DNA of 64,000 nucleotides from Thermoplasmata archaeon (GTDB taxonomy: Archaea; Thermoplasmatota; Thermoplasmata; Lutacidiplasmatales; UBA184). The position numbers and the translations under genes were made by a program. The first letter of the stretch is position 1. The number at the start of each line of letters is the position of its first letter. Location of the stretch: assembly GCA_022750055.1 (NCBI GenBank), contig JAKIWL010000002.1, forward strand, positions 85,042-149,041. The letters run 5' to 3'. Below, piece after piece: positions 7,477-28,146 of the stretch. The notes under the pieces are model-generated. The model was not told the DNA's origin, ran no database searches, and worked only from the letters and a program-made list of their open reading frames with translations.

Positions 7477-10400
7477 ATGACTACTGAACTCTCGCAGAGC
7501 GTGAGCCGTTTGACCGCGCATTCCGCCCGCTCTCCGGGCATGTCGACCGTGATGGCGGCCGTCGGGATCGTGGTCATCCTCGTGGCCCTGAGCGTCGGCA
7601 CGTTCGCCGTCCTGGGGGGATTCTCTCCCCAGCCCGGGACCCAGTGCTCCCCGCCGAGTTCGCCGGCGTGCGGTTCCTACGAAAACCTCCACGACGTCTC
7701 GGTGCTCTCCCCCTTCAAGTCCGCGCCGACCGGCGCGGCCGTCGCCCTGAGCGCCTCCGTGCCCCAGGGAGAGTCGGCGACGAGCTACACCTACAATTTC
7801 GGCGACGGGGTCACGGCCACCACCTCGGGCACGATCGAATCTCACAACTATACGAATCCGGGCCAGTATCTGGTCTACGTCCAGGCCTCCGTGAGCGGGC
7901 TGAAGCACGACAACATCGGCAACCTGGTCCTGCTGAAGATCACTCCATCGGCCACCGTCGGCAACGCGGGCAGCACGGCCCCGATCACGACCTCGGTGGT
8001 CTCCAACACCACCTCGCCGACAGCCGGGACCAAGGGTGTGACCACCGTGCTCACGCAGGGCCAGAGCGTGACCGTGTCGGCCGCCTACTCTTCGGCGCCG
8101 ACTAATCCGGCCTTCACGACGCTGCCTCCCAAGATCATCGTCTCCACCGGCGGCACGATCACCACGAACTCACCGACCCCGACCAGCGTGCAAGCCACGG
8201 CCCTCTTCTCCGCGGCCGGGACGTTCGAACTCACCTTTGTCGGGTCCTCGACGAACGTGAACGGGACCCAGGTCGTCTACCAGAACTACACCTGGACCGT
8301 GTTCGTTGCGGCCTCCGGAACCCACGCGGGGATCTTCGGCTCGGCGGCCCCGCAGAGCCCGCACCCTGGGACGATCGTCGCCTACGAACTCGCTCCGGGC
8401 GGGGCGGCCTCGGAAGACCCGGCGATCGACTACGAGACGGTGGGCGCAGAGCCGATCTCCAACATCTATCAGACCCTCATCACGTACAACGGGACCGATG
8501 TCGGCCCGGCCGCCAACAACTACGTACCGGTGGCCGCCACGTGCGTCCCGGGCAGCCCCCAATGCAAGGCGCTCTACGGCAACACTCTGCAGAACGGCAC
8601 CAGCTACACCTTCGTGATCCAGCCGAACGCGACGTTCTACGACCCGACGACCCAGGCGCACTGGAGCATGTTCCCGACCGATGTTGAATTCTCGATCGCG
8701 CGCGACCTCGGTTTCTCCACCCTGCCCTTTACGACCGCCCACCCCGGATGGATCGTCGCTCAGGCCCTGCTCAACCCCGGGAACGTGTCGTGGGACCTGA
8801 TCCACGGCTCCTACAACAGCACCCCCCAAGATATCTTCGCGTCGATGGTCATCAACGGCACCCAGTGTCCCTCGGTCGCCCTCAAGGGACCCGGCGCCCG
8901 CGGTTGCATCACCTTCCTCGCCAACGGCGACAACCACCCCTGGCCGGACTTCCTCGAACTCGTGGCCGATCCCCTCGGGGCCGGGATCGTCTCGTGCGGG
9001 TGGTTCAGCGCGAGGGCCCAGGCGGCCGGCATTCCGTACTGGTCCCGCGGTAACATCTCCGGGTCGGGGGACCAGCCGTGCGCGCCGGTGGGGGCCGGAT
9101 TGGGAACCCCCGTCGCCCAGATTCCCGCGACCGGCTGGGACCAGTGGGAGGAGCTCGGAAGCGGCTCGTTCAACGGCCAGTACCTGGGGAACGTCCAGTG
9201 GAACCTGGTCGGGAGCGGTCCGTATGCGCTGTCGAACTACCTCATCGGCTCGTCCTACGCGATGAAGGCCAATCCGTACTACGAGCAGAACCCGTACTGC
9301 ACCTGGACCGGCTGCACCCCGAAGGCCGGGCAGTACGCGAGCCAGGTTGAGGTCACCTGGGAGACGAGCGAGACCCAGGGCGAACAGGCCCTCCGGTTCG
9401 GGGCGGCCGACTTCGCCTCGATCCCGTCGAGCTCGATCGGCCTCATGCTCCAGCTGATCCAGCAGGGAAAGATCAACGCGATCCAGGCGCCGACGCTCAA
9501 CATCTTCTTCGAGGCGTTCAACCTCAACTTCAACCTCCCGGGGGCCCAGCGCTACTCGACGAACCCCATCGGAGTGCTGGCCGACTTCTTCACGTACATC
9601 GGCATGCGAGAGTTCATCTCGAGGGCCTATCCGTACGCGACGATCGAGAACACGATCAACACGAAGGATGGGATCCAGTTCGGGTTCAACATGGGAGGAG
9701 CGATCCCCCAGTTCATGGGGAACTACTACCCGTCGAACATCTCCTGGCCGAGCAAAGACCCGTGCACCTCGACCACCGACCCAGCGTGTCCGGCGTACTG
9801 GTGGGCCCAGATGCATTCGAGCTCGAGTCCCTTCTACGACCCACAGGTGCTCTCGTGTTCCAGTTCGAACCCCTGTCAGTTCCCGATCTTCAGCGCCACG
9901 GGCAATACGCCGCAGGACGAGATCAACTCGCTGTGGGACAGCGAAATCTCGAGCCTATCCGGGGGTGCGCTCCAGTCGAATCCGATCGACATCAACTTTG
10001 TCAACGAGGTCGCGAACTCCGAGACCGTCGCGGGGCAGAATCCCATGCCGATCTACTCCCTCGGTTGGGCCCCGGACTTCCCGGACCCCACGGACTACAC
10101 GGTCCCCCTGTACAATCCGAACGCCACCTACACGGCCGGGGACGCCGTCGCGACCCAGCTCGAGCAGCCCCAGTTCGCTACGGGATGCGCCTACAATTTC
10201 CATCAGTACTCCAACTACGCCGCCCTCGCCGTCTCCACGGGCATCCCGCAGAGCTGCCAAGGCGTGGCCTACAAGGCGATGGTCTACGCGCTGGGCCTCG
10301 CCTCGGCGATGACGAACCTAACTCAGCGCCAGGCCACGTACGACCTCGCCGAACAGATCGGCTACGGCCTGTGCCTCTACGTCTACCAATTCCAACAGAA

Positions 10401-17940: not shown

Positions 17941-19215
17941 GTGACGGTTCCGGGCGGCCGCCTGCACGATCTCCTCCTGCAGCACGGCGTCCCGGAACGA
18001 GCCTCCCGGATCTACCTCGCCGCCGTCCGGGAGGGACCGCAGACCGCGTCGGAGTTCGCCCGGGTCACGGCCATGCACCGGGTCGAGGCCTACCGGTTCA
18101 TCAAACACCTCGAAGTGCTCGGATTGCTGCGATCCACGAGCGGCCGTCCGATGCGATTCGCCGCCCTACCGCCGGACGCGCTATTGGACCGTTGGATCCG
18201 GACCGCCACCGAGCGCCTCCGCCGACTCGAAGGGGACCGATTGCTCACCCTCGAGGACCTGAAAGCCGGTCTACTGGATGTTCACTCAGCGGACCCGCGC
18301 AAGTTCACCGTCCTCGAGGGCCAGGAGGAGATCTACCGATTCCTCGTCCGCCGGATCGGCACGGCCAAGGTCGAGATCTGGGCGTCGATGCCCGGGGCCG
18401 CGCTTCCCCTCGCGATCGCCGGTGGGATCAATCAGGCGTTCCGCGCTGCCCACGATCGGGGCGTGCGGATCCGAGTCGTCACGGACATCCGCCCGACCAA
18501 CCGCGGGGAGGTCAAGCATTTCCTCGGATTCGCCGATATCCGACACAGCACGCGCCCGGTCGTGACCCGTGCCGTGGTCGTGGACCGGATCGGGGCGGTC
18601 GCCTATGTATCCAGCACGGAGGGACTCGGCGGATCCTCCGTCTCCCAGGTCGCCGTCTGGTCGAGCTCCCCGTCCTTTCGGAAGCTCGCGATGGACTACC
18701 TACGGCCCCTGTGGACGCGGTCGATGACGGTAGAGCGTAGGCTCGTCGAGCTGGAAGCCCCGGAACGTCCCCGCCTGCCGATGCGGCTCGGGCAGGCCGA
18801 GGCGCCGCTGGCCCGCCTCCGGGAGATCGCGACCCTCGGGATGCGGGCCACGGGGATCGAGGAGCTGCATCTCGACGTTCCGGACATGATCGAGGCCGTC
18901 GGGCGCCAACTGGGCCGCCAGGTGGGCGATGAACTCGAGGGCGAGACCCCCGACGAGGTGGCCCGTTCGCTCATCGAATACTACAAGGGCCACGCGATGG
19001 GGCGCCTGGAGATCGCGCGCGCCCGTCCGCTCACCCTGAAGGTCACCCAATGCTTCGCGTGCGTTCGACAATCCCCCGAAGTCGGACGGCGGCTGTGCCC
19101 GATGGTCCTGAAATCGGCCCTGGAGAATCGACTGGGATCCGGCTTCGATGTCAGCCAACCCGACCCAAGCCGGCATTCGAGCCGGGGTTGCCTGTTCACC
19201 GTGACCCCGTCCTAA
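17941..19215 (+). CDS. TrmB-family transcriptional regulator with C-terminal cysteine domain
   Basis: 424 residues in three parts. The first is an N-terminal TrmB winged helix (GPQTASEFARVTAMHRVEAY, about 33-52). The second is a central phospholipase-D-like effector domain of the TrmB regulatory type (KFTVLEGQEEIYRFL, about 121 onward, then IRVVTDIRPTNRGEVKHF). The third is a C-terminal domain with CFACVRQSPEVGRRLCPM and a late CLF, resembling V4R/heme- or metal-binding sensor domains. TrmB proteins usually control sugar or central carbon genes; the effector is unknown. GTG start, own promoter, monocistronic. Confidence 0.8.
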   Translation: MTVPGGRLHDLLLQHGVPERASRIYLAAVREGPQTASEFARVTAMHRVEAYRFIKHLEVLGLLRSTSGRPMRFAALPPDALLDRWIRTATERLRRLEGDRLLTLEDLKAGLLDVHSADPRKFTVLEGQEEIYRFLVRRIGTAKVEIWASMPGAALPLAIAGGINQAFRAAHDRGVRIRVVTDIRPTNRGEVKHFLGFADIRHSTRPVVTRAVVVDRIGAVAYVSSTEGLGGSSVSQVAVWSSSPSFRKLAMDYLRPLWTRSMTVERRLVELEAPERPRLPMRLGQAEAPLARLREIATLGMRATGIEELHLDVPDMIEAVGRQLGRQVGDELEGETPDEVARSLIEYYKGHAMGRLEIARARPLTLKVTQCFACVRQSPEVGRRLCPMVLKSALENRLGSGFDVSQPDPSRHSSRGCLFTVTPS

Positions 19216-19360
19216 GCCGGTTCGAGCTCCCGGTGGGAGGACGACTCCGACGCAGGCCGAGGGATGGGTCGGCCCCCTGCGAATAGGAGGAAGTCTGCTC
19301 GATCGACTCCTCACGTCGGTGCGAAGGGCACCCACCCTCGTGTCGACCGGGCCGTCGAGA

Positions 19361-19738
19361 TCATCGGGAACGTCGAGCGAGGTTCTCGGCGACCCGGGCC
19401 CGGACGATGCGCCGGACCAGGTCCGACGGCAAGGGTCGATCGGGGGTGAACTGGAGGGTCCCTTTTCCCTTCTCGAACGGCTTCGTCGCATCGGAAAACT
19501 GACGGAGGACCCGGGCACTTCCGGCGAAGAAGCTCAGGTGGTCCCGAAAGGCACCATAGTACACTAGCATTCCGTCCTGACGGAACGCGGGCATCTGATA
19601 GCTGATGAGTTCCTCGGCGTCGGGGGCGGCCGCTCGAATCGTCTTACGAAGTTCGCCAAGGACCTTCCGAAATTGGGGCGGGACTCTGTCGAAATACTCC
19701 TCCACCGATGTCGGTGCCCTGACCCCCCGAGTTCGCAT
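19361..19738 (-). CDS. DUF1801 / YdhG-like protein
   Basis: 125 residues with the DUF1801 pattern: SVEEYFDRVPPQFRKVLGEL, EELISYQMPAFRQDGMLVYY, FFAGS and a C-terminal GTLQFTPDRPLPSDLVRRIV. Relatives are small alpha/beta proteins linked to iron handling or stress, with no firm biochemical role. The start at 19738 is preferred over an upstream in-frame GTG because a minus-strand TATA-like ATTTTTG stretch lies about 27 bp before it and the extra 28 residues look non-coding. Confidence 0.8.
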   Translation of the reverse strand: MRTRGVRAPTSVEEYFDRVPPQFRKVLGELRKTIRAAAPDAEELISYQMPAFRQDGMLVYYGAFRDHLSFFAGSARVLRQFSDATKPFEKGKGTLQFTPDRPLPSDLVRRIVRARVAENLARRSR

Positions 19739-19958
19739 GAGCCCCGGACTGGGTGGGGGCAAAAATGGATTGCGATGTCGGTCTCTGAGGGGGCAGCCGG
19801 GCTCGACGATCCGTGCGACCAAGGGGCCGGGGATGTCGACCTGGCCTTCCTACGCGGGGCCGGGTCGGTCAGCCTCGTTTCCGTCGTCCAGATTCGGCGG
19901 ATTCAGGTCCCGGGGGTGCGCGGGTGGCTTTAAAAATAAATCTGCGAAAAACGCCGAT

Positions 19959-19989
19959 TTGAAAAAGAATCGGTCGGCGTGAAAATAAA
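19959..19989 (+). repeat. Left island repeat
   Basis: 31-bp stretch beginning TTGAAAAAG and ending CGTGAAAATAAA, matching 26871-26901 at about 22 of 31 positions with identical spacing between the two conserved blocks. It lies in an AT-rich spacer (about 19930-19990) unlike the surrounding GC-rich sequence. Nothing else is seen in 19739-20029. Confidence 0.45.
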
Positions 19990-20029
19990 TCGAGAGGGAT
20001 CGGGTATCTGCCCCCCGACGCCGGTCCGG

Positions 20030-20458
20030 CTACTTGGGCAGGGCGCCTACGGCTAGTTCGATGGAGTGGTTCCCCTTGTCCGTGGAGACGAAGATGACCA
20101 CAATCCCGAGACGCGCCAGCGAGCGTGAGCGCTCCCGGATCAGCTCCCGGTTCGTGGCATCACCGGGTAGTGCGATCCCCGCAGCGGCGCCATCCGAGAG
20201 GAGTTTTGTCGTCTGAACCAGTGCGCGGCCCAAGCTCGACTCCTTCTGGCTCTTCAAAAACTCCTTGCCGTACCGAGGGGTTCCGGGCTGGCTGCTGCCC
20301 TGACCCTTGGCTTCGATTGTTAAGCGGACGCCGCTGGGGGACTTCATAATCAGGTCGGGCCCGTGGCTCCCGATATCCTTCACCCGGTAGTGGGAGGTGA
20401 ATCCTCTAGCCTTCAGGCCCTCCTCAACGGCGTCTATTACTTCCGACTCGGTCAACAT
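20030..20458 (-). CDS. PD-(D/E)xK nuclease-like protein
   Basis: 142 residues. SEVIDAVEEGLKARGF leads into GSHGPDLIMKSPSGVRLTIEAKGQG, giving the D-(x)n-ExK active-site pattern of restriction-endonuclease-fold nucleases (Asp near residue 33, Glu/Lys near 49-51). A basic stretch follows, and the C-terminal VVIFVSTDKG strand fits the fold. It may be a structure-specific or restriction-type nuclease, or a regulator that kept the fold. It lies at the left edge of the island and reads leftward, downstream of two small ORFs on the same strand. Confidence 0.65.
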   Translation of the reverse strand: MLTESEVIDAVEEGLKARGFTSHYRVKDIGSHGPDLIMKSPSGVRLTIEAKGQGSSQPGTPRYGKEFLKSQKESSLGRALVQTTKLLSDGAAAGIALPGDATNRELIRERSRSLARLGIVVIFVSTDKGNHSIELAVGALPK

Positions 20459-20518
20459 GTGGGGTTTGTGGGGGCCGATTCAGCCGGCCCCCTGAATAGA
20501 TCAGATGCCCTTGTAGAA

Positions 20519-20614
20519 TCAGTCTTCGTCGTCCTCTTGCTTCTCTCTGTTCTCCCGGACCTGGTTGTCGTGGTTTGCCTGCGCCGCTTGGCCGGCCGCG
20601 GACTCCCGGTTCAT
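20519..20614 (-). CDS. Tiny acidic/glutamine-rich ORF (31 aa), hypothetical
   Basis: Begins with an ATG that overlaps the stop of the 96-residue ORF (ATGA) and encodes a strongly hydrophilic peptide ending EKQEDDED. The coupled start and the composition, which differs from random GC-rich frames, are the only support. It could be a short accessory or antitoxin-like peptide. No homologue is recognised. Confidence 0.35.
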   Translation of the reverse strand: MNRESAAGQAAQANHDNQVRENREKQEDDED

Positions 20615-20901
20615 CGAGTCCGCTCGGTCGTCGTTCGCCGTTCGTCCCGGGCTACTGCCTCGTCCGCCGCCACCACCTTTCGGCATTTTCGTTTCTTCGC
20701 CCAGAAGGGCAGGGCGGACACCCCCTGCCGATTGATGAACCCTTCGACATCGCTGTTAAACTGCCCGGTGAGGCTTGGGTGGATGGCCATCGATCTCTCG
20801 ACTACCATAGACCTCGTCGGTCTCTGGGTCACGGCAGGCGGTCTTTCTGTGAACGAATCCCTCGGATCGGGTCCTTCCCGCCCTGGCGTGGGCCAGAGCA
20901 C
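20611..20901 (-). CDS. Hypothetical basic protein (96 aa)
   Basis: The GTG start lies about 30 bp from a TATA box that also serves the opposite strand, and the stop is coupled to a 31-residue ORF. The middle contains a plausible structured stretch (QFNSDVEGFINRQGVSALPF) followed by a basic patch (WAKKRKCRK). The N-terminus looks low-complexity. No family is recognised. The promoter position is the best argument for expression. Confidence 0.4.
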   Translation of the reverse strand: MLWPTPGREGPDPRDSFTERPPAVTQRPTRSMVVERSMAIHPSLTGQFNSDVEGFINRQGVSALPFWAKKRKCRKVVAADEAVARDERRTTTERTR

Positions 20902-20929
20902 CTTCCCCCAATCGACCGGCGGGGGAGGG

Positions 20930-20940
20930 ACTATAAGCCG
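20930..20940. promoter_or_regulatory. Bidirectional TATA box in the island
   Basis: ACTATAAGCC reads as a TATA element rightward and as GGCTTATAGT leftward. It sits 25-30 bp from a GTG in each direction (20959 plus, 20901 minus), so one box may drive two divergent leaderless transcripts. Confidence 0.5.
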
Positions 20941-20958
20941 GGCACTCAGTGCCGCCCT

Positions 20959-21213
20959 GTGGCCCCTCCACCTTCATGCGACATCTGCGGTAGGGATTCC
21001 AAGGATTTGCTGCTCCATCTTCGCCTTGACCACGAGGTGCGGGACCCTGAGAGTCATCTGGAGGCGCTTAAGTTGGAGGTCGCAAAGCTCGACCGGAAAC
21101 TCGCTTTCCGGCGAGCTGTGGACGAGATGAAGGCGAAGGTCGAGCAGGGGCTAATGACCCCTGAGGAGTACCGGCGCCGAGTGGTGCTCCTTAATGAAAA
21201 TCCCGGCCCCTAG
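20959..21213 (+). CDS. C2H2-type mini zinc-finger protein (84 aa)
   Basis: CDICGRDSKDLLLHLRLDH near the N-terminus is a C2H2 finger. It is followed by a charged helix (ESHLEALKLEVAKLDRKL) suited to a coiled coil. A short segment, GLMTPEEYRRRVVLL, at the C-terminus resembles a SHOCT-like tail. The GTG start has a TATA box at leaderless spacing; a longer in-frame reading upstream has no such support and looks non-coding. It precedes the ParB-like gene by 21 bp, so it may be the first gene of that operon and its regulator. Confidence 0.6.
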   Translation: MAPPPSCDICGRDSKDLLLHLRLDHEVRDPESHLEALKLEVAKLDRKLAFRRAVDEMKAKVEQGLMTPEEYRRRVVLLNENPGP

Positions 21214-21234
21214 GACTCCGAAAGAGGCTTTCGA

Positions 21235-22056
21235 ATGCCGGAACTGGTGACCTTTCGGAAACTCGAGCCCAACCTTCCCATCGAGTTTATCGATGTGGCG
21301 GACGAGAACGTAAGGCACACGCAACTCGATTTTGGAATCGAGGAACTGAAGACGAGCATCGAGAGGCTTGGCCTGATCCATCCGGTCATCGTCATCCCCA
21401 TTGGCCACCGGTTCAGGCTCGTGGTCGGTCAGCGGCGTTACCGTGCGTTTCTGGCGCTCGGTAGACCGACGATCCCTGCGCTGATCATTAGGTCCATAGA
21501 CAAAGACTCACAGCGGCTCGTTTCGTTCAGCGAGAATATCCACCGAAGAAACCTTCCGTACGATGATACGATTGCGGTATGCGACTACCTTTTTCAGGCG
21601 CACAAAGGTCCCAAGACGGCCAAGATTGAGACCATAGCAAGAGAGCTGAACATCTCTGTTTCGACTGTCCGGAAGTACCTCGCGTATCGACTCGTTCCGG
21701 AACCAGTCCAGAAGTTAGTGCGTGAGCGTGAACTCTCAGCCGAGATCGCCTATCGTATCACCGAGGTTTTCTGGCCCAACGCGGCAATCATAACCGAGAT
21801 CGCGAAGAGGGCGACCCTCCTCACCAAGTCCGAGAAGAATCGTCTTATCGAAATCGGAAAGCGAAACCCAAATGCTCCGATTGATAGCATTATCGAGGCG
21901 GCGCAAAAGGCACTCCCGTACGTAGAGATATCGATCTACATCGAGCCGGAGACGATGACCCTCCTAGAGAAAGAGGCCAACAAGCGGAAGACCGACGTCC
22001 AGACGATGATCAAAGGAGTCGTCGATGATTGGGTCCGCGAGGAGGGGATCAAGTGA
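21235..22056 (+). CDS. ParB-family protein with HTH and C-terminal helical domain
   Basis: 273 residues. The N-terminal ParB/Srx fold has FIDVADENVRHTQ, the nucleotide motif VVGQRRYRAFLALG (GxRRxRA, about residues 62-75) and FSENIHRRNLPYDD (ENxxR, about 99-112). A helix-turn-helix (IARELNISVSTVRKYLAYRL) occupies about 135-155. The C-terminal part ends with a ribbon-helix-helix-like segment (EISIYIEPETMTLLEKEANK). ParB proteins are CTP-dependent DNA clamps; some island-borne ones are regulators. No ParA accompanies it, which argues against simple partition. Its stop overlaps the next gene (GTGA). Confidence 0.8.
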   Translation: MPELVTFRKLEPNLPIEFIDVADENVRHTQLDFGIEELKTSIERLGLIHPVIVIPIGHRFRLVVGQRRYRAFLALGRPTIPALIIRSIDKDSQRLVSFSENIHRRNLPYDDTIAVCDYLFQAHKGPKTAKIETIARELNISVSTVRKYLAYRLVPEPVQKLVRERELSAEIAYRITEVFWPNAAIITEIAKRATLLTKSEKNRLIEIGKRNPNAPIDSIIEAAQKALPYVEISIYIEPETMTLLEKEANKRKTDVQTMIKGVVDDWVREEGIK

Positions 22057-22616
22057 AATCCGCCGAGGCCGAGCTGCTTGCGGAACTCTATGTGGACCTG
22101 AAAGGTCGAAGGGACAAGCGGTTAGACTGGATTACGATCGCAACAAAGTGCAAGGAACTTTCCAATCTCTACGGTGGCTTCAGGGAGGCGGCCTCCAAAC
22201 TTGGGGTTTCGCTGCAGCTCGTAAGGTCGATCGTAAGCCTTCTCGACTTGCCAGCAGGAGTTCAGACTATGGTCAAGGATCGTTCAATCCTCTTTGACGC
22301 GGCCCAGCGATTAAACACCCTAAAGGATCCTCGAAGGATGGTTCGAGTCGCGAGACAGATTCGTAACCTTCCCTCACGTCAACAAAGGGAGATCATTCAG
22401 TTCGCGAAGGGCCATCCGGATGCTGACTTGGTCGATTTTCGTAAGCGTGTCGCGCACAAGGAAACTCGAACAGAACGGATTCATCTGTTGATGATACCAG
22501 TTGATGACCTCACTTTCAACGCATTGCAAGCCCTGAGTCGTAAGGGCGAATCCACGGTGCAGGGAACGATACTAAAGGCCGTTCACCAGCTCGTTTCGCA
22601 AGGTACTAAACCTTGA
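22053..22616 (+). CDS. ParB-like paralogue lacking the CTPase domain
   Basis: 187 residues. It lines up with the C-terminal two thirds of the preceding ParB protein: an HTH (KLGVSLQLVRSIVSLLDLPA), the spacer (VQTMVKDRSILFDAAQRLN, then KGHPDAD), and a ribbon-helix-helix-like tail (RIHLLMIPVDDLTFNALQAL). It has no GxRR/ENxxR nucleotide-binding part. It probably binds DNA or pairs with the full-length protein. The GTG start overlaps the upstream stop (GTGA); an ATG at 22029 would extend the overlap to 28 bases. Its own stop overlaps the next start (TTGA). Confidence 0.65.
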   Translation: MKSAEAELLAELYVDLKGRRDKRLDWITIATKCKELSNLYGGFREAASKLGVSLQLVRSIVSLLDLPAGVQTMVKDRSILFDAAQRLNTLKDPRRMVRVARQIRNLPSRQQREIIQFAKGHPDADLVDFRKRVAHKETRTERIHLLMIPVDDLTFNALQALSRKGESTVQGTILKAVHQLVSQGTKP

Positions 22617-23266
22617 CCCTCATTATTGCGGCGCACGGGAAGGACTGCATTGTGGTTGGTGCCGACAGTAGGGGCACATCCGAACAGGGAGGTACCCGGG
22701 TCGAGACAAACACAATAGTCAAATTATTCCCGGTGGGGAGACACGCGGTTGTCCTAATCTGTGGCGATTCCGGTCCTGCCACGAACTTGGTTGACCTTCT
22801 TGTAGAAGCGAGGGTCAAGGAATCGACGGGAGTCCGCGGCGTCGCGACTCATCTGGCCCGGATTGCCAGACAAGAGGCGCGTGATTTGAAGGACGTGCCC
22901 ACCCATCCGAGGTACTTCCCGAACTTCGCCTTCATTGTCGCTGGTCTAGAGCGAATCAACCGAGGTGGCCTAAAACCGCGATCATTCGCCCTCCGAAGCG
23001 AGACGGGATTCCGCCTCGAGCTGACTCAAGGCGGCCGAGAGATGGACGGCAAGCCTATGATCCCCCTCTATATCTTTGCCAAGGACTTCAAGGATAACAT
23101 GAATTTTGATGAACTCTGTACGCTTGTCGCGAGAGCGCTACACAACACATCACGAATCGACGGCGATGTCGGAGGCAGGCTTCGGGTCGGTGTCGTATCG
23201 ACAACGGGATTCCGAGAGCTTACCCGCGACGATGTAGAGGGGCGTTTCGAGAAATGGCCCGATTGA
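22613..23266 (+). CDS. Proteasome-like Ntn-hydrolase (first of two)
   Basis: 217 residues. TLIIAAHGKDCIVVGADSRG follows the initiator Met, placing Thr exactly at the proteasome beta position 1 and Asp at position 17. A Lys occurs in TIVKLFPV at position 36 (33 in proteasomes), and CGDSGPATN resembles the serine-glycine turn. It should be an N-terminal-nucleophile amidase or protease, although oligomerisation is unknown. There is no propeptide. It is translationally coupled (TTGA) to the ParB-like pair, which suggests cleavage of a regulator or a partner protein. It is not the housekeeping proteasome, which is much closer to consensus. Confidence 0.7.
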   Translation: MTLIIAAHGKDCIVVGADSRGTSEQGGTRVETNTIVKLFPVGRHAVVLICGDSGPATNLVDLLVEARVKESTGVRGVATHLARIARQEARDLKDVPTHPRYFPNFAFIVAGLERINRGGLKPRSFALRSETGFRLELTQGGREMDGKPMIPLYIFAKDFKDNMNFDELCTLVARALHNTSRIDGDVGGRLRVGVVSTTGFRELTRDDVEGRFEKWPD

Positions 23267-23279
23267 CCCAGAGTTGTGC

Positions 23280-24002
23280 CTAGACCATACAGTTCGCGCC
23301 GCAGGGCTCGTCTCCAACTACTCGGGTCCGCGGCTGGTCCTGGAACCGCCTCTCAACCAAATTCCTTAGGCCACCTGAACGCAGATTCTGTCTCGGAAAG
23401 TGCTTGGACCCTTCTTCCAATGCTACCGCTCTTTCAAACAAGTCTGGATGAGTGTCGTGAATCTCCCTCCAGCGATCAGCATTATTGAAAGGACAGAAGA
23501 AACATCCGCTCTTCACCGGCACCGGAAGCCCCGCCTTCTTGATAATGCGAATACAACCCTCTCGGGTTATTCGCATGTCAACTAGCGGGAATATTGATGT
23601 AACGAAGTCAGCCTGGCTCCTCTTCATCCGATGAATCTCATCGTAGGCGATCCCGAGGTACTCGAAGATGTGGTCATCTATCGTCTTGTAGTAGGCGTGA
23701 ATAGGATAGACTTTGAAGTCCCGAGTTGACCATCGCCACATCTTGGAGGGGATGACAGACCTCCGGGTGCAGGCATCGTACAACGAACCCGATTTGTTCT
23801 TGACTACCGTGAGATTCTTGCCATGTTCCGCCAGATACTTTCTCGCCACTTCGAGAAACTCATAGGTCTCCGGGACCTCTCCCCCCGTGTCGGCAAACAC
23901 GGCCTCGTCAAACCGCATCCTTTTCTTGATCAACAATACCATCAGGGCAGCAGTGTTCACTCCAGCCCCGAAACTGAGGATGTATCGCCCCTCGCCCGTC
24001 AT
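23280..24002 (-). CDS. PAPS-reductase-family (PP-loop ATPase) protein
   Basis: 240 residues. ILSFGAGVNTAALMVL is a PP-loop variant (SxGxxT) at residues 8-23. FADTGGEVPETYEF is the second signature of this family, and SGCFFCPFNNADRW near residue 165 gives a Cys pair that may hold an Fe-S cluster. CGANC ends the protein. Related proteins include PAPS reductase, DndC of DNA phosphorothioation, and IbrA, which is encoded beside a ParB-like IbrB in E. coli. The pairing with ParB genes here is therefore notable. It converges on the Ntn-hydrolase gene (13 bp apart) and has its own repeat-flanked promoter. Confidence 0.75.
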   Translation of the reverse strand: MTGEGRYILSFGAGVNTAALMVLLIKKRMRFDEAVFADTGGEVPETYEFLEVARKYLAEHGKNLTVVKNKSGSLYDACTRRSVIPSKMWRWSTRDFKVYPIHAYYKTIDDHIFEYLGIAYDEIHRMKRSQADFVTSIFPLVDMRITREGCIRIIKKAGLPVPVKSGCFFCPFNNADRWREIHDTHPDLFERAVALEEGSKHFPRQNLRSGGLRNLVERRFQDQPRTRVVGDEPCGANCMV

Positions 24003-24005
24003 GCA

Positions 24006-24050
24006 GTCCTGCTATGTCCTGCCAGTACTTAACGTCCTGCTTCGTCCTGC
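24006..24050 (-). promoter_or_regulatory. Promoter with four GTCCTGC repeats
   Basis: GTCCTGC occurs at 24006, 24016, 24034 and 24044: two pairs, each with a 10-bp (one helical turn) period. Between the pairs lies a minus-strand GTTAAGTA box 26-30 bp before the PP-loop gene start. This arrangement is typical of an operator bound by a dimeric repressor that blocks TBP. A short overlapping frame also reads through it, so a coding origin of the repeats is not excluded. Confidence 0.5.
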
Positions 24051-24160
24051 TCAGAATTGCCGGGGTGGTTTCCGACCGTCTGGTCTTTCCCAGAGAGAAT
24101 AGAGGAGTGTACTTCGCGACCGACTTGGCTACCATCATGGAATCACCTCATCGTGCACGA

Positions 24161-24382
24161 TCAGGTGAGAGGTCCTCTTCGCCTGCGGACCGGGGTGACT
24201 CCGCTCGACCCGGCCTTGGTGGCGCCACGTTGGATTCGGAGGACCCCCATGCGGGCCTCGCCCACCAACTCGTCCCCCTCTGACCACCCTAGTTGTTCCA
24301 CGAGGGTGGGAGGGAGGCTTAGGAGCCACTTGTAGTAGGTCTTGTCGTACGCCTTCAAATTCACGACGCGCTGGAGCTTCAC
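24161..24382 (-). CDS. AbrB/SpoVT-like DNA-binding protein
   Basis: 73 residues. LQRVVNLKAYDKTYYKWLLS, then LPPTLVEQLGWSEGDELV and LRIQRG, match the swapped-hairpin AbrB fold: a strand, a helix with PPxLVEQLGW, and GDEL before the last strand. The GTG at 24382 yields the usual MKLQRV-type beginning. A longer reading from a TTG at 24454 would start inside the operator. The protein lies divergent to the transposase across a palindromic operator and may bind it. It could also be an antitoxin, but no toxin gene is adjacent. Confidence 0.65.
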   Translation of the reverse strand: MKLQRVVNLKAYDKTYYKWLLSLPPTLVEQLGWSEGDELVGEARMGVLRIQRGATKAGSSGVTPVRRRRGPLT

Positions 24383-24432
24383 GCCAGGAACGAGAGGATA
24401 GGCAATACAAGAAGCTTCGGTCGCTAAGGACC

Positions 24433-24472
24433 TTAGATACCTATAAGTATCCAAGATACCTTAGGTATCTAA
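24433..24472. promoter_or_regulatory. Double palindrome operator with embedded TATA boxes
   Basis: Two adjacent palindromes: GATAC-(6)-GTATC at 24436-24451 and AGATACC-TTA-GGTATCT at 24454-24470. TTAGATACC at 24433 and GGTATCTAA ending at 24472 also frame the whole as an inverted repeat. CTATAAG inside the first palindrome acts as a TATA box both for the transposase (start 24487) and, as CTTATAG, for the AbrB-like gene. Repressor binding would block both. Confidence 0.6.
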
Positions 24473-24486
24473 TTGAGGACACGACG

Positions 24487-25770
24487 ATGACGAACGACTC
24501 GAACGCGCCAGTTGTGGCGGATGATGGAAGGGTGGCCAGGGGGGTGGAGATCGCCTCACATCCCGAAGCTATCGCCAAGCTCGAAGACGGGGTCTGGTCT
24601 GTTCCCTCCCAAACCGGGTCCGGCGGATACCGAGTTTGGTTCGTCGACGGAGTCGGACGGTGTTCGTGTCCGGATTATGGCAAACGCCTGATTGCGTCCC
24701 AAGCTGCCCCCTGCAAGCACATCTATGCCGTGATGGACCTCAGACTTCGTGAGGCAGGGAAGCCTCCGCTCCTGCCCGAGAGGAAGGCACGGAAACAGTA
24801 CCCCCAGCATCCGACCTACAACAAGGCGCAGACTGAGGAGTTGAGGCTCGTGGACTCCCTCCTCCACGATCTCCTAGGAGTCGCCCCCGATTTCCCAAGA
24901 ATCCCGGGCAAGGCGGGACGACCCCCCCTCCCGTTCCGGGATGAGCTGTACTGCGCGATCCTCAAGGTCTATTCTGGGCTCTCCGGAGCCCGAGCCTATG
25001 GGGTCTATCGCAACGTCGCGGACCGGGGTCTGCTCGGTCACATCCCCAGCTACGCGGTCGCCTCCAACCTCCTCACGCGGCCTGAAGCCACACCCGTCCT
25101 ATACAGCCTCCTCCGGATGAGCGCGCTGCCGCTAGCGGGACTGGAGGAGGGCGGTGTTGTCGCTCCTGACAGCACTGGAATTCAGACCACCTCCTTCGGC
25201 GGATGGCGCGAGGAGAAACACGGCGAGAAGAGACAGAGACGGTGGGTCAAAGTTCACGCAATCGTCGGGACCAAGACGCATGTAATCATTCGAGCGGTGG
25301 TATCGGACAAGAACTCCGGCGACTCCCTTGAATTCGAGCCGCTCCTCCGAGGCACGCTCGAAGACGGCTTCCGGCCCACGGCGATAGCGGCCGACAAGGG
25401 GTATCTTTCGGCGCGCAATTACGCCCTGGCCGACTCGTTGGGAGTCGAGCCGTTCATCCCCTTCAGGGTCGACACGGTTTCTAACGACGTCAACCGAATT
25501 CGAGGGGTCGTCAAGCCGGAAGCATGGATAAAAGCGTACCATATGTTCCAAGCGAATCGACCCGAGTTCGACCGGCGGTATCACATCCGCTCGAATGTCG
25601 AATCGGTATTCTCGGCACTCAAGCGAAAGTTCGGGGAGAACATCCGCTCCCGAACCCCGGTGGCTCAGGTGAACGAAGTCTTGTGCAAGCTGATCTGCTA
25701 CAACTTGACCGTCGTGGTTCACGAGATGTTCGAGAACGGAATCGCGCCGTCCTTTGCGCAAAGGGGGTAG
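24487..25770 (+). CDS. DDE transposase with N-terminal SWIM zinc finger
   Basis: 427 residues. A SWIM finger CSCPDYGKRLIASQAAPCKH (CxC...CxH, about residues 59-78) precedes an IS4/IS5-type DDE core. The first Asp is in VVAPDSTGIQT (about 224), the second in AADKGYLS (about 299), and the Glu in the helix NVESVFSALKRKFG (about 376). Similar SWIM-transposase fusions occur in archaeal insertion sequences. I found no convincing terminal inverted repeats around it, so its element limits are unknown. The operator upstream suggests regulated rather than decayed expression. No frameshift is seen. Confidence 0.85.
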   Translation: MTNDSNAPVVADDGRVARGVEIASHPEAIAKLEDGVWSVPSQTGSGGYRVWFVDGVGRCSCPDYGKRLIASQAAPCKHIYAVMDLRLREAGKPPLLPERKARKQYPQHPTYNKAQTEELRLVDSLLHDLLGVAPDFPRIPGKAGRPPLPFRDELYCAILKVYSGLSGARAYGVYRNVADRGLLGHIPSYAVASNLLTRPEATPVLYSLLRMSALPLAGLEEGGVVAPDSTGIQTTSFGGWREEKHGEKRQRRWVKVHAIVGTKTHVIIRAVVSDKNSGDSLEFEPLLRGTLEDGFRPTAIAADKGYLSARNYALADSLGVEPFIPFRVDTVSNDVNRIRGVVKPEAWIKAYHMFQANRPEFDRRYHIRSNVESVFSALKRKFGENIRSRTPVAQVNEVLCKLICYNLTVVVHEMFENGIAPSFAQRG

Positions 25771-25796
25771 TTGGCACAGTGGTGACCAACCCTAGG

Positions 25797-25991
25797 CTAA
25801 GGCGTGGAACCGGATGCAGGCTCCGCCTCGGCCGGGGGAGCGGCCTCTACCTGCAACCCGAAGATGGTGGGAAGATTCATCCGGGCAGCCCATAAGCTGA
25901 GCTGCCAAGACTGGAGAGCGGCGGCTAGGCTAGACTCGGGGTCAGGTAACAGAGGGGGAACAGGCAGATCAGTGGGGCTTCTCCGATTCAT
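25797..25991 (-). CDS. Small hypothetical ORF (64 aa) after the second Ntn-hydrolase
   Basis: The ATG overlaps the last 23 bases of the Ntn-hydrolase gene, suggesting coupled translation. The peptide has a central hydrophobic/aromatic helix (ALQSWQLSLWAARMNL) and a Pro/Ala/Glu-rich tail. No family is recognised. It may be chance in a GC-rich sequence. Confidence 0.35.
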   Translation of the reverse strand: MNRRSPTDLPVPPLLPDPESSLAAALQSWQLSLWAARMNLPTIFGLQVEAAPPAEAEPASGSTP

Positions 25992-26796
25992 ACACCCTTT
26001 GAAGCTCCTTGAGGGACGGCCTCTGGATCATCATAGCCTGTTCTCGCGCCTTCTTTAACTCTTCGAGAACGGCATCACTGCAGACCCTTGGACTTCCATC
26101 GGCTGCGACCACAGCTAGGTCGGTCGTCTGGCCGACGCCGGGGGCGACATGGGCCGCAACCTTCGCGCAGTAGACCCCGTAAACGGTATCGTAAAGCGCG
26201 TGGGTCCGAGTCTGGCCCGATAGCGCCATAGTTGTGATCGCATGGATCGCGCCACTGCCAACTGCACCGTAGCCGAGCTTGTCAAGCCAGTAGATCGACC
26301 CCGGGTGAGTCACGACTGCAATGCGGGCGCCGTTCGCATCAACGCCAGCGAGGACAAGTTCCGTCTGGAGGTTGTACTGGGAGGTTTGCGCCGCGAGCAG
26401 CTGGTAGAGCTGCGGCTGCGGCTGAAGGTACTGAGGCAGTAGGGCGCCCTTCACCTTGCGCGCGTTATAGAAGTCAATCCCGAGCATCGGGAGAATGATC
26501 TGCTCCTCCGCCTTGGTAAGCTTCACTCGCTCGTAGGCTCGGTGGACAGCTTCGGCAGCTTGAACCACGGTCGGAGTTCCGTTTCCACCGAGTTCCTTTC
26601 GAGCCTCGTCCAGTATCTCTGTCACGACTGCGACGTTGCCGGCGGGGAGGACGACGATACCGGGCGCGAACCACTCAATCTTAGAGACATCGGACTCGAA
26701 CTCTACGCTGACGGGCGGGGGCGAGGTAAACATGCGGTCCGCCGCCACCACGACGCTCTTCCCGTTATTGCAGATGGCCGCTATGCAAATCGTCAT
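25969..26796 (-). CDS. Proteasome-like Ntn-hydrolase (second of two)
   Basis: 275 residues. TICIAAICNNGKSVVVAADR follows the initiator Met: Thr 1, Asp at about 19 in AADR, and a Lys in VSKIEWF at about 38, followed by LPAGNVAVV where proteasomes have their glycine turn. A long Gln/Leu-rich insert (QYLQPQPQLYQLL) and GYGAVGSGAIHA in the C-terminal half are unusual. The C-terminus is a charged helix. It resembles the Ntn-hydrolase at 22613 only in the core, so the two are distant relatives. Predicted amidohydrolase or protease; substrate unknown. It faces the right end of the island. Confidence 0.65.
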   Translation of the reverse strand: MTICIAAICNNGKSVVVAADRMFTSPPPVSVEFESDVSKIEWFAPGIVVLPAGNVAVVTEILDEARKELGGNGTPTVVQAAEAVHRAYERVKLTKAEEQIILPMLGIDFYNARKVKGALLPQYLQPQPQLYQLLAAQTSQYNLQTELVLAGVDANGARIAVVTHPGSIYWLDKLGYGAVGSGAIHAITTMALSGQTRTHALYDTVYGVYCAKVAAHVAPGVGQTTDLAVVAADGSPRVCSDAVLEELKKAREQAMMIQRPSLKELQRVYESEKPH

Positions 26797-26870
26797 CGGG
26801 GGACTCCTGTGCTTACGCCACGCCCACCGCGAGGGACGGTATCACCATTACGGACTGCGCTCGATCGACC

Positions 26871-26901
26871 TTGAAAAAGTATTCTTGTCCGTGAAAATGA
26901 T
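26871..26901 (+). repeat. Right island repeat
   Basis: Starts TTGAAAAAG and contains CGTGAAAAT at the same spacing as 19959-19989. It lies about 75 bp upstream of the second Ntn-hydrolase start, so it could instead be part of that promoter region. The remaining 26797-27033 spacer is AT-rich and holds the TFB promoter. Confidence 0.45.
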
Positions 26902-26994
26902 TTGGGCCATCTGCGTCATTCTTTTTTAAAGCCTGCGCGGGTCGATTTTTTGTGTAAGTCTTGTTTGAACACTGGTGACATAACGGGGCCGTGC

Positions 26995-27005
26995 CTTTAT
27001 ATATT
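26995..27005 (+). promoter_or_regulatory. TATA box of the TFB gene
   Basis: TTTATATATTA is a near-consensus archaeal TATA box centred about 34 bp before the ATG. Confidence 0.65.
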
Positions 27006-27033
27006 ACTGACCCGTCACGCTTATCCGATACAC

Positions 27034-28146
27034 ATGACGATAAAGTCCACCCCCAGCGCGAGGAGTCTCCGTCGACCCTCCGCGCTGAAAGCTCCCGCCG
27101 TCCCGGCTGGAACTGGCCACCTGGGCGAAGGGCCCCGAACTCCTCCCCCGATCTCCAACGATGGCGACGTGTGCCCGGAATGCGGTTCGACCCACCTGAC
27201 CCGGGACGACATCCGCGGGGAGATCGTTTGCGCAGATTGCGGGCTCGTCGTCGATGCCAGCGCGCTCGTCTCGGACCGGGGCCAGCGGGGTAGCAAGGAA
27301 GACACGGGCCGCGAAGCGCGAGGGTGGGGGCCGGTCATCTCGCCGTTGATGCCAGACAAGGGACTCTTCAGCGAGATCGGGGTTCCCACGCGCGACTTCC
27401 AAGGGAACAGTCTCTCCCGTCACGCCTCCGTCAAGTTCTACCACCTCCGGAAGCTCAACCACCGGCTGCGCGCCGCGCGGACCCACCAGCGCAACCTCGT
27501 CGTGGCCCTCGGCGAGCTCAACCGACTGGCGGGGGTCCTCGGCCTCTCTCGGGAGGTCAAGGAATCGGCGACGTACATCTATCGGCGGGCCTTGGAGCAC
27601 AAGGCGACCCGCGGCAAGAAGATCGTCGCCCTCGTTGCGGCGAGCGTCTATGCCGCCTGCCGGCAATGCCATGTGCCGCGAACGATGAAGGAGATCATCG
27701 CCCATTCGAAGGCGACCAAGATCGAGGTCGGGCGGGCGTACACCCTCCTCGCACGCGAGCTCAAGCTCGGATTGAAGCCCGTCGAGCCTCGGGACTACCT
27801 CGTCCGGTTCACCCAGGACCTGAACCTCTCCAAGGAGGTTCGGCATAAGGTGCTCGAGCTCCTCGAACAGGTGGAGCAGGTCTACTCGACCTCGGGGGTC
27901 CTGCCCAACGGGATTCTGGCGACCATCATCTACATCGCCTCTAACCTGATGGGCGAGCCGCGCAGCCAGGATCGGATCGCGGCCGTCGCCAACGTGACCC
28001 CGGTGACGATCCGCAACCACTACAAGGAGCTCCTCGACCTGCTCGGGCTTCCGAAGAACCTGGCCAACCCGCAGGCTCGGGGGACTCTCCCGGTTCCACG
28101 CGAAGCTGGCCCGATCCTCGTGACGCCCCCGATCGCGGGTCAGTAG
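27034..28146 (+). CDS. tfb: Transcription initiation factor B (TFB/TFIIB)
   Basis: 370 residues. The N-terminal zinc ribbon is CPECGSTHLTRDDIRGEIVC plus CADCGLVVD (about residues 47-72). The B-finger/linker follows, then two cyclin-like repeats: RNLVVALGELNRLAGVLGLS to IVALVAASVYAACRQ and QDLNLSKEVRHKVLELLEQV to ATIIYIASNLMG. It bridges TBP-DNA and RNA polymerase. The 40 residues before the ribbon (TIKSTPSARS...) are longer than usual and basic. The ATG at 27034 sits correctly behind a TATA box. Many archaea carry several TFBs; whether this is the only one cannot be seen. Confidence 0.95.
   Translation: MTIKSTPSARSLRRPSALKAPAVPAGTGHLGEGPRTPPPISNDGDVCPECGSTHLTRDDIRGEIVCADCGLVVDASALVSDRGQRGSKEDTGREARGWGPVISPLMPDKGLFSEIGVPTRDFQGNSLSRHASVKFYHLRKLNHRLRAARTHQRNLVVALGELNRLAGVLGLSREVKESATYIYRRALEHKATRGKKIVALVAASVYAACRQCHVPRTMKEIIAHSKATKIEVGRAYTLLARELKLGLKPVEPRDYLVRFTQDLNLSKEVRHKVLELLEQVEQVYSTSGVLPNGILATIIYIASNLMGEPRSQDRIAAVANVTPVTIRNHYKELLDLLGLPKNLANPQARGTLPVPREAGPILVTPPIAGQ

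Follow-up and report, generated by a model that had tools for sequence, protein, structure and literature searches.

A five-gene archaeal cassette that combines a ParB pair with a proteasome-like hydrolase, a PP-loop protein and a small zinc-finger protein

The window analyzed here is a 64,000-nucleotide stretch (G000:C2:85042-149041) from the 1.5-Mb genome of a Thermoplasmata archaeon, in which a stretch of low guanine-plus-cytosine (GC) content, flanked by a TrmB-like gene on one side and a TFB gene on the other, holds an island of genes. Five of these genes, at 20959-24002, make up a cassette, namely a PP-loop protein (PP), a small C2H2-like zinc-finger protein, a ParB, a second ParB-type protein (ParB2), and a proteasome-like N-terminal nucleophile (Ntn) hydrolase (Ntn1). 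The full cassette is present in four genomes of archaea that are only distantly related, and we consider it close to certain that its five genes form one unit. Judged by its sequences, the set is conserved and operon-like, keeps the signature residues of its families, and in several cases lies at variable or mobile sites.

Results

Gene content and organization of the cassette

The five genes of the window cassette are the following (open reading frame, ORF; helix-turn-helix, HTH; 3'-phosphoadenosine-5'-phosphosulfate, PAPS).

20959-21213, + strand: small zinc-finger-like protein, 84 aa from a GTG start, first gene of the operon; its matches precede ParB in loci L055, L093 and L180
21235-22056, + strand: ParB, with a ParB_N domain (CTPase-type), an HTH and a C-terminal part (PF02195, 2.2e-13)
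22053-22616, + strand: ParB2, with a ParB-type HTH and a C-terminal part, without the N domain (HTH_ParB, 6e-7)
22613-23266, + strand: Ntn1, a proteasome-type threonine hydrolase with Thr right after the start codon (PF00227, 1e-10)
23280-24002, - strand: PP, a PP-loop/PAPS-reductase-like protein convergent with ntn1 (PF01507 (PAPS_reduct), 1.1e-7; phrog_424, 1.1e-38; SspD model, 2.7e-32)

The original prediction, which was made from the letters of the window, had named a ParB, a ParB-like protein and a PP-loop protein here, and the listed matches to ParB_N, HTH_ParB and PAPS_reduct bear out all three; the small zinc-finger gene had been overlooked. Two 4-bp overlaps tie the middle genes together, as the GTG start of parB2 overlaps the parB stop and the TTG start of ntn1 overlaps the parB2 stop. 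A TATA-like element, ctataagc, lies ∼22 bp upstream of the zinc-finger GTG (read by eye), and its position would fit an archaeal leaderless operon.

Distribution of the cassette

Scanning a three-row Ntn profile over the species collection yielded 13 loci. One of these, L055 (Bathyarchaeota palsa_986), carries PP, the zinc finger, ParB, ParB2 and Ntn1 consecutively on one strand, while the 12 others, together with three viral loci, gave no further cassette gene by tblastn or by profiles run against ORFs of at least 50 aa (several of these records being short). A ParB2 profile matched 19 of the 349 genomes of the L055 phylum, and regions were read from 11 of these and from L055 (G377, G564, G474, G365, G480, G542, and G527 were left aside). 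Among these 11, L093 holds all five cassette genes; L095 has ParB, ParB2, and PP without Ntn1; L094 has ParB2 and PP without Ntn1; in L096 and L097 a ParB/ParB2 pair occurs while PP, zinc finger, and Ntn1 are all missing, and L096 has two more ParB-type genes; and the remaining six have one ParB-type gene each. At 9056-11648 of L096, ParB, ParB2, and a gene resembling a metallo-beta-lactamase-fold exonuclease (named by eye) are consecutive, with 4 bp shared by the second and third genes, and the third partner of the ParB pair may vary.

A PP profile matched 12 of 300 genomes in the class of G373 and 5 of 250 in the class of G250, with some genomes counted in both; three of the ten new loci in the first class (G747, G804, and G726) and all three in the second were read. 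Scores above 400 bits were reached in five genomes, four of which are rows of the profile itself; the fifth is G1029, whose locus L180 was found by the PP profile alone and has the other four cassette genes adjoining its PP. The five weaker PP loci that were read held none of the other cassette genes.

Full sets are known from the window, L055, L093, and L180, the latter three all in the L055 phylum; L180 is in the L055 class, and L093 probably belongs to a different one. The absence of co-occurrence in other genomes had been named beforehand as the outcome that would count against a module; three genomes other than that of the window have PP, ParB, ParB2, and the hydrolase side by side. Between the window and the other full sets, identity is 43-47% for ParB, 36-46% for ParB2, 34-40% for Ntn1, and 23-30% for the zinc finger, and PP is 48-51% identical across five partners. 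The presence of the full set in four genomes, the 4-bp overlaps, the discovery of L180 through PP alone, and the clean separation of cassette Ntn1 proteins in a tree (see below) together argue for a module.

The cassette is rare within the window's own group. In the window's class, Ntn1 matches occur in 14 of 250 genomes, the other 13 being 25-30% identical and having no other cassette genes in the stretches read (L044-L046 included). In the window's own group, PP is matched in one other of 150 genomes, and ParB2 is weakly matched in three others of 233, one of these matches being the ParB of L040, with G1217 and G1099 left unread. Viral contigs gave no relatives in single-protein scans with Ntn1, Ntn2 (a second proteasome-like protein of the island, described below), and ParB, nor in profile scans with ParB2 and ParB; tblastn likewise returned no relatives of Ntn1 from phages and none of Ntn1, ParB2, and Ntn2 from plasmids.

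The ParB pair and the zinc-finger protein

The window ParB has the boxes GQRR and ENIHR, and GQRR with ENxxR is present in all five ParBs compared. With its ParB_N fold and GxxR phosphate box, this protein is predicted to be a ParB-type NTPase clamp. The ParB2 model also matches ParB, on model residues 45-179, and ParB2 looks like a ParB relative that lacks the N domain. The zinc-finger protein combines a C2H2-like CxxC...HxxxxH pattern with a SHOCT-like tail, whose SHOCT match (0.047) is below the cut-off.

The ParA-binding motif, [LFI]G[KR]G[LFI] as defined in PMC12704722, is absent from all five ParBs. A search of the window, L055, L093, L180, L094, and L095 for ORFs of at least 120 aa with KGGx[GA]K[TS], which we take to be a ParA-type pattern, returned none. 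With neither a ParA-type gene nor the ParA-binding motif found, the cassette is not a ParABS partition system. It resembles the ParB, Noc, and KorB CTPase clamps in the ParB_N domain, the GxxR and ENxxR boxes, the HTH, and the C-terminal part of its ParB, and differs from them in (i) the missing ParA-type ORF and motif, (ii) a second ParB without the N domain, and (iii) the recurring PP and Ntn1.

Ntn1 resembles proteasome subunits

In the Ntn alignment, each of the 16 rows has a Thr directly behind the start codon (the start was placed there by hand in two), and Thr2, Asp18, Lys37, and Asp183 of Ntn1 are invariant in all of them. The first three fall on the positions of the proteasome triad Thr1/Asp17/Lys33, as this triad is given in PMC8665760. 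Ntn1 aligns to yeast beta-1 in the same register (phmmer, E 0.0036). The position that we equate with proteasome Ser169 is a Val in all 16 rows. The Ntn1 structural model has a predicted local distance difference test (pLDDT) score of 86, and all 50 of the PDB matches listed for it are proteasome entries, with template modeling (TM) scores of 0.66-0.83. From its modeled fold and its Thr1-, Asp17-, and Lys33-type residues, Ntn1 is thus predicted to be a proteasome-like Ntn hydrolase. In a tree, the four cassette Ntn1 proteins are separated from 14 non-cassette relatives with a support of 100/100 on a long branch, the window Ntn1 row itself being flagged as a long branch.

Two other assignments of Ntn1 were considered and rejected. 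As a housekeeping archaeal proteasome, it is outmatched by three stronger PF00227 matches in the same genome (137-185 bits versus 27 bits for Ntn1), and its score against arc_protsome_B is 22.7 bits, against a cut-off of 224. Class II glutamine amidotransferases use an N-terminal Cys nucleophile, and the nucleophile position here is Thr, not Cys, in 16 of 16 rows.

Ntn1 resembles the orphan proteasome homologs of Fuchs, Alva, and Lupas (2021, PMC8665760) in its fold, its Thr1/Asp17/Lys33-type positions, and the lack of a propeptide. That survey reports 22 kinds of new proteasome homologs and no genomic context suggestive of a specific function; by contrast, ntn1 overlaps a gene of the ParB pair in a conserved cassette.

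A wider proteasome-like family (L056-L070), many members of which have a DSRGTFGDPRG-TAQND-type stretch, occurs in several bacterial groups, in archaea, and on three viral contigs; no other cassette genes were present in the DNA examined around it.

PP is the best-conserved gene and seems to move separately

PP has a CxxC motif and a C-terminal Cys pair; in an alignment of 23 rows, the CxxC and the first terminal Cys are invariant, and the second terminal Cys is present in at least 90%. Its model has a pLDDT of 91, with a 16-residue tail below 50, and its closest PDB folds are PAPS reductase (CysH), followed by LarE, GMP synthetase, and TtuA/NcsA. Identification as an assimilatory PAPS reductase failed on curated scores (14.2 of the required 165.1 bits for TIGR00434 and 12 of 254.2 for TIGR02057), and despite this CysH remains the closest fold. 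Relatives of PP at less than 60% identity occur in 62 phage records. At L177 (G1029), the PP match spans an in-frame TAG near its start, and the 243-aa ORF that was used begins after this TAG.

The place of PP in the cassette varies. It comes first and is co-directional in L055, L093, and L180, and it comes last and is convergent in the window, L094, and L095. The PP genes of L093 (7701-8474) and L095 (10556-11329) share 81% DNA identity, and L095 has no DNA match beyond PP to an 8-kb part of L093, while the ParBs of these two loci are 31% and their ParB2s 25% identical. L180 and L094 are 72% identical in DNA over PP alone in the stretches compared. The PP gene seems to move separately: because the DNA similarity is confined to PP and the ParBs beside it are divergent, a near-constant PP appears to have joined divergent ParB2-bearing loci more than once. 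Such a pattern would suggest variable site recognition combined with constant chemistry.

The island occupies a variable site

In 1-kb steps, the GC content of the window is 0.628-0.732, except at 21-24 kb, where it falls to 0.537-0.552, and at 24-27 kb, where it is 0.586-0.603. A search for TFB-type genes succeeded in 39 of 41 same-genus genomes (E ≤ 1e-60; the window's own genome and paralogs counted), and we compared 11 same-genus regions upstream of the closest TFB (L218-L228), nine of them with both flanks; L221 and L227 end at a contig edge and offer the right flank only. The aligned flanks lie 348 bp apart in same-genus G009 versus ∼8.1 kb in the window, and the remaining regions differ in spacing and contents, other genes filling up to ∼6.9 kb. 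Across the genus, the DNA that separates the TrmB-like and TFB genes (window 17941-28146) is likely an insertion hot spot. The cassette profiles had no match in any of the 11 regions, where the sole match to an island protein is a transposase fragment in L223; in view of this variable site and the lack of profile matches, the cassette looks like a lineage-specific acquisition.

A 31-bp imperfect repeat that had been proposed to border the island could not be upheld, as the best repeat found is 28 nt at 75% identity, which is weak and marginal. When the two 131-bp borders, which were picked post hoc, are compared, 7 of 300 dinucleotide shuffles reach their best match. The repeat is on both counts poor evidence for the island ends, and in view of the shuffles we reject it as an attachment site.

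Surroundings of the other loci

Type I restriction-modification genes lie ∼1 kb from the L180 cassette. At L094 (3995-15423) and L187 (6109-13971), BrxA, BrxB, PglX, BrxC, PglZ, and BrxL adjoin the ParB2/PP pair, and portal and encapsulin/capsid-type genes lie on the other side of L094. L055 neighbors a tyrosine integrase. Within ∼10 kb at L095 (6481-15383; the same stretch is in L185), a Cas1, a B-family DNA polymerase, and ParB/ParB2/PP stand together, possibly as a casposon-like or other integrated element. A second Cas1-like ORF was seen by eye near this Cas1. The PADLOC scan of flanks covered nine proteins by L180 and L094, and the other flanks were read by eye.

Comparison with known systems

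Among the nine island proteins, PADLOC returned single matches, namely PP to SspD (2.7e-32) and BrxP (2.1e-5), ParB weakly to MTase_II and mad1, and the zinc finger weakly to REase_II; the other Ssp, Dnd, and BREX models gave no match at E ≤ 0.5. An Ssp system is rejected, since SspD alone was matched among these nine proteins, without SspA, SspB, or SspC. A Dnd system is likewise rejected, no Dnd model having matched at that threshold, as is BREX type 4, for which BrxP was the only match and neither PglZ nor BrxC is in the island; the BREX genes by L094, which include PglX and BrxL, form a set of their own. What the cassette has in common with phosphorothioation by Dnd, Ssp, and BREX type 4 is a PP-loop enzyme, as the SspD and BrxP matches of PP indicate. 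Dnd systems also use DndB, which is termed a ParB-superfamily protein in PMC10853773.

PP matches the viral PAPS-reductase-like proteins of PHROG 424 at 1.1e-38 and has the same CxxC and terminal Cys. The viral loci differ in that none of 57 carries the ParB pair, the zinc finger, or the hydrolase, with two limits: 19 of the 57 records are shorter than 8 kb, and the ParB profile consists of two rows, so that it could overlook a distant ParB-fold protein next to a viral PP gene.

IbrA/IbrB, which the original prediction had named, is by description a PP-loop/ParB-like pair, as PP and ParB are. PMC6008420 describes the two as prophage-borne gene regulators. The main text of the ParB-fold survey PMC12704722 does not contain "proteasome," "PAPS," or "phosphosulfate," and no description of the gene set is among the papers listed in searches of the open-access literature (subscription papers and preprints were outside its reach). 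None of the systems tested matches the cassette in its list of parts, and the cassette looks like a so far undescribed accessory system; every single part is a member of a known family.

Discussion

A proposed mechanism and the case for mobile-DNA conflict

We propose that ParB would bind a nucleoside triphosphate (NTP), probably CTP, and would then load as a clamp at specific DNA sites, pairing with ParB2 through their related C-terminal parts. At the place so marked, PP would adenylate, and perhaps thiolate or otherwise modify, the DNA or a nucleotide. Ntn1, either free or assembled into a proteasome-like ring, would cleave a partner, which could be a target in the host, the zinc-finger protein, or the ParBs, and this cleavage could either reset the system or serve as its effector. 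Low GC content, the variable site, the integrase by L055, the portal/capsid-type genes by L094, and the restriction-modification and BREX genes by L180 and L094, respectively, point to an accessory or mobile character, and we regard conflict with mobile DNA (host defense, or element versus element) as the likeliest role. Taken as a whole, the reading of the five genes as one horizontally moved archaeal accessory module that works in this way and in this conflict is plausible, with a chance that we put somewhat below even.

Several observations weigh against this reading. Only four full sets are known; the palindrome search returned no shared parS-like palindrome; the viral PP loci described above are bare of the other cassette genes; and PADLOC found no known system complete among the nine island proteins. 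On the right side of L093 the genes are ordinary chromosomal ones, and reading by eye showed no defense gene at this locus, which contains 909 N. A defense-island setting, which had been suggested as a check, was found in part, with defense genes beside two of the five non-window loci, which are the only two whose flanks were PADLOC-scanned; this proximity may merely reflect shared insertion sites, and the modification or defense role itself is still conjecture.

A more specific version of the proposal is an archaeal immune or DNA-marking system in which an NTP-closed ParB/ParB2 clamp gives the site, PP does the chemistry, and the loaded clamp switches Ntn1 on or off. We regard this version as possible and rather doubtful. 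If true, it would tie a proteasome homolog to a DNA clamp, and a link between a CTPase-type DNA clamp and controlled proteolysis was seen in none of the systems compared. The conserved overlap with the ParB pair gives one orphan proteasome homolog a concrete partner set; for ParB folds not encoded in parAB operons, as for the PP-loop proteins that mobile elements carry, functions are likewise mostly unassigned.

Alternative explanations

The gene set could instead be a KorB- or Noc-like module that serves an integrated element in its maintenance or gene control, in which the ParB pair represses or organizes element DNA, the hydrolase removes a regulator upon induction, and PP is a passenger or a redox/sulfur sensor. 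A link to mobile elements is frequent among ParB-fold proteins encoded apart from parAB operons, and KorB and Noc act as regulators (PMC12704722), as IbrA/IbrB are described to do (PMC6008420). Moreover, ParB pairs without PP or Ntn1 exist (L096 and L097), and the loci adjoin an integrase, provirus genes, and Cas1/PolB genes. However, no element core is visible by eye in L093, L180 is surrounded by type I restriction-modification genes and by surface-type proteins rich in repeats, with no evident element, and PP, as the best-conserved gene that joined ParB2-bearing loci more than once, does not behave like a passenger. We hold this explanation to be conceivable, with the weight of our judgment against it.

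Ntn1 could also be a connectase-like, sequence-specific protein ligase or processing enzyme that acts on ParB, ParB2, or the zinc finger without degrading them. Connectase, a proteasome homolog, is indeed a specific protein ligase (PMC8665760), and no unfoldase-type gene was recognized by eye in the cassettes. The Ntn1 model, however, lacks by eye the helix pair between the early strands where the connectase insertion is sited, and we consider such a role unlikely.

A further alternative is a pathway of small-molecule or nucleobase modification, in which PP adenylates a substrate and the Ntn hydrolase is its amidase or amidotransferase partner. AsnB-type enzymes, which combine Ntn and PP-loop domains, offer a precedent for this pairing, and the fold matches of PP include LarE, GMP synthetase, and TtuA/NcsA. 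Against this, the Thr nucleophile position and the Asp17/Lys33-type pair of Ntn1 are kept in all 16 rows, and there is no class II amidotransferase among its 50 listed PDB matches, which makes an AsnB-like pathway improbable.

A chance patchwork of unrelated insertions, to which the transposase, the unshared genes of the island, and the marginal border repeat might seem to point, is refuted for the five-gene core by its contiguity in four genomes and has next to no chance overall, while it may still hold for the nuclease-like gene, the AbrB-like gene, the transposase, and Ntn2.

Other genes of the island

Four further genes of the island lie outside the shared cassette.

20030-20458, - strand: small PD-(D/E)xK-like ORF (Mrr_cat 0.043, below the cut-off, and a reading of motifs)
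24161-24454, - strand: AbrB/MazE-like small protein (PF04014 0.0035, below the cut-off)
24487-25770, + strand: IS5-like transposase with a SWIM zinc finger (DDE_Tnp_1, PF01609, 1.6e-27; PF04434, 3.1e-5)
25969-26796, - strand: Ntn2, a second proteasome-like protein of another subfamily (arc_protsome_B 3.8e-4)

These genes are rejected as parts of the cassette, as they are not shared with the other loci. The nuclease-like gene and Ntn2 had no tblastn match at E ≤ 0.1 in seven records of five other loci, and the AbrB-like ORF had no match in other loci. Of the module as first proposed, ParB, the ParB-like protein, one hydrolase, and PP stand, and the nuclease and the second hydrolase fall away as fixed parts. 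The ORF of the proposed nuclease gene is present, its PD-(D/E)xK assignment resting on the below-cut-off match and motifs listed above. PD-(D/E)xK-like motifs were also seen by eye in two ORFs near the L055 cassette, at 1372-2238 (DUF6671 in Pfam, below the cut-off) and at 8169-9011 (no Pfam match); the window nuclease has no match to either, and a looser link between the cassette and nucleases is conceivable.

Of the two proteasome-like hydrolases that had been predicted, Ntn1 is firm by its PF00227 match, and Ntn2 is weaker, with no significant Pfam match. Ntn2 matches an HslV-type PHROG at 0.016 and can be aligned over its length to Ntn-type proteins from genomes of the same class, three of which (L016-L018) have relatives at 23-28% identity. 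Further relatives are in L048 and L049, without cassette genes in the stretches compared.

The transposase scores 123.5 bits against the IS5 model, under its cut-off of 140. A 41% identical relative of this SWIM-finger transposase lies beside a ParB-like gene in G023 (L042, 9050-11450).

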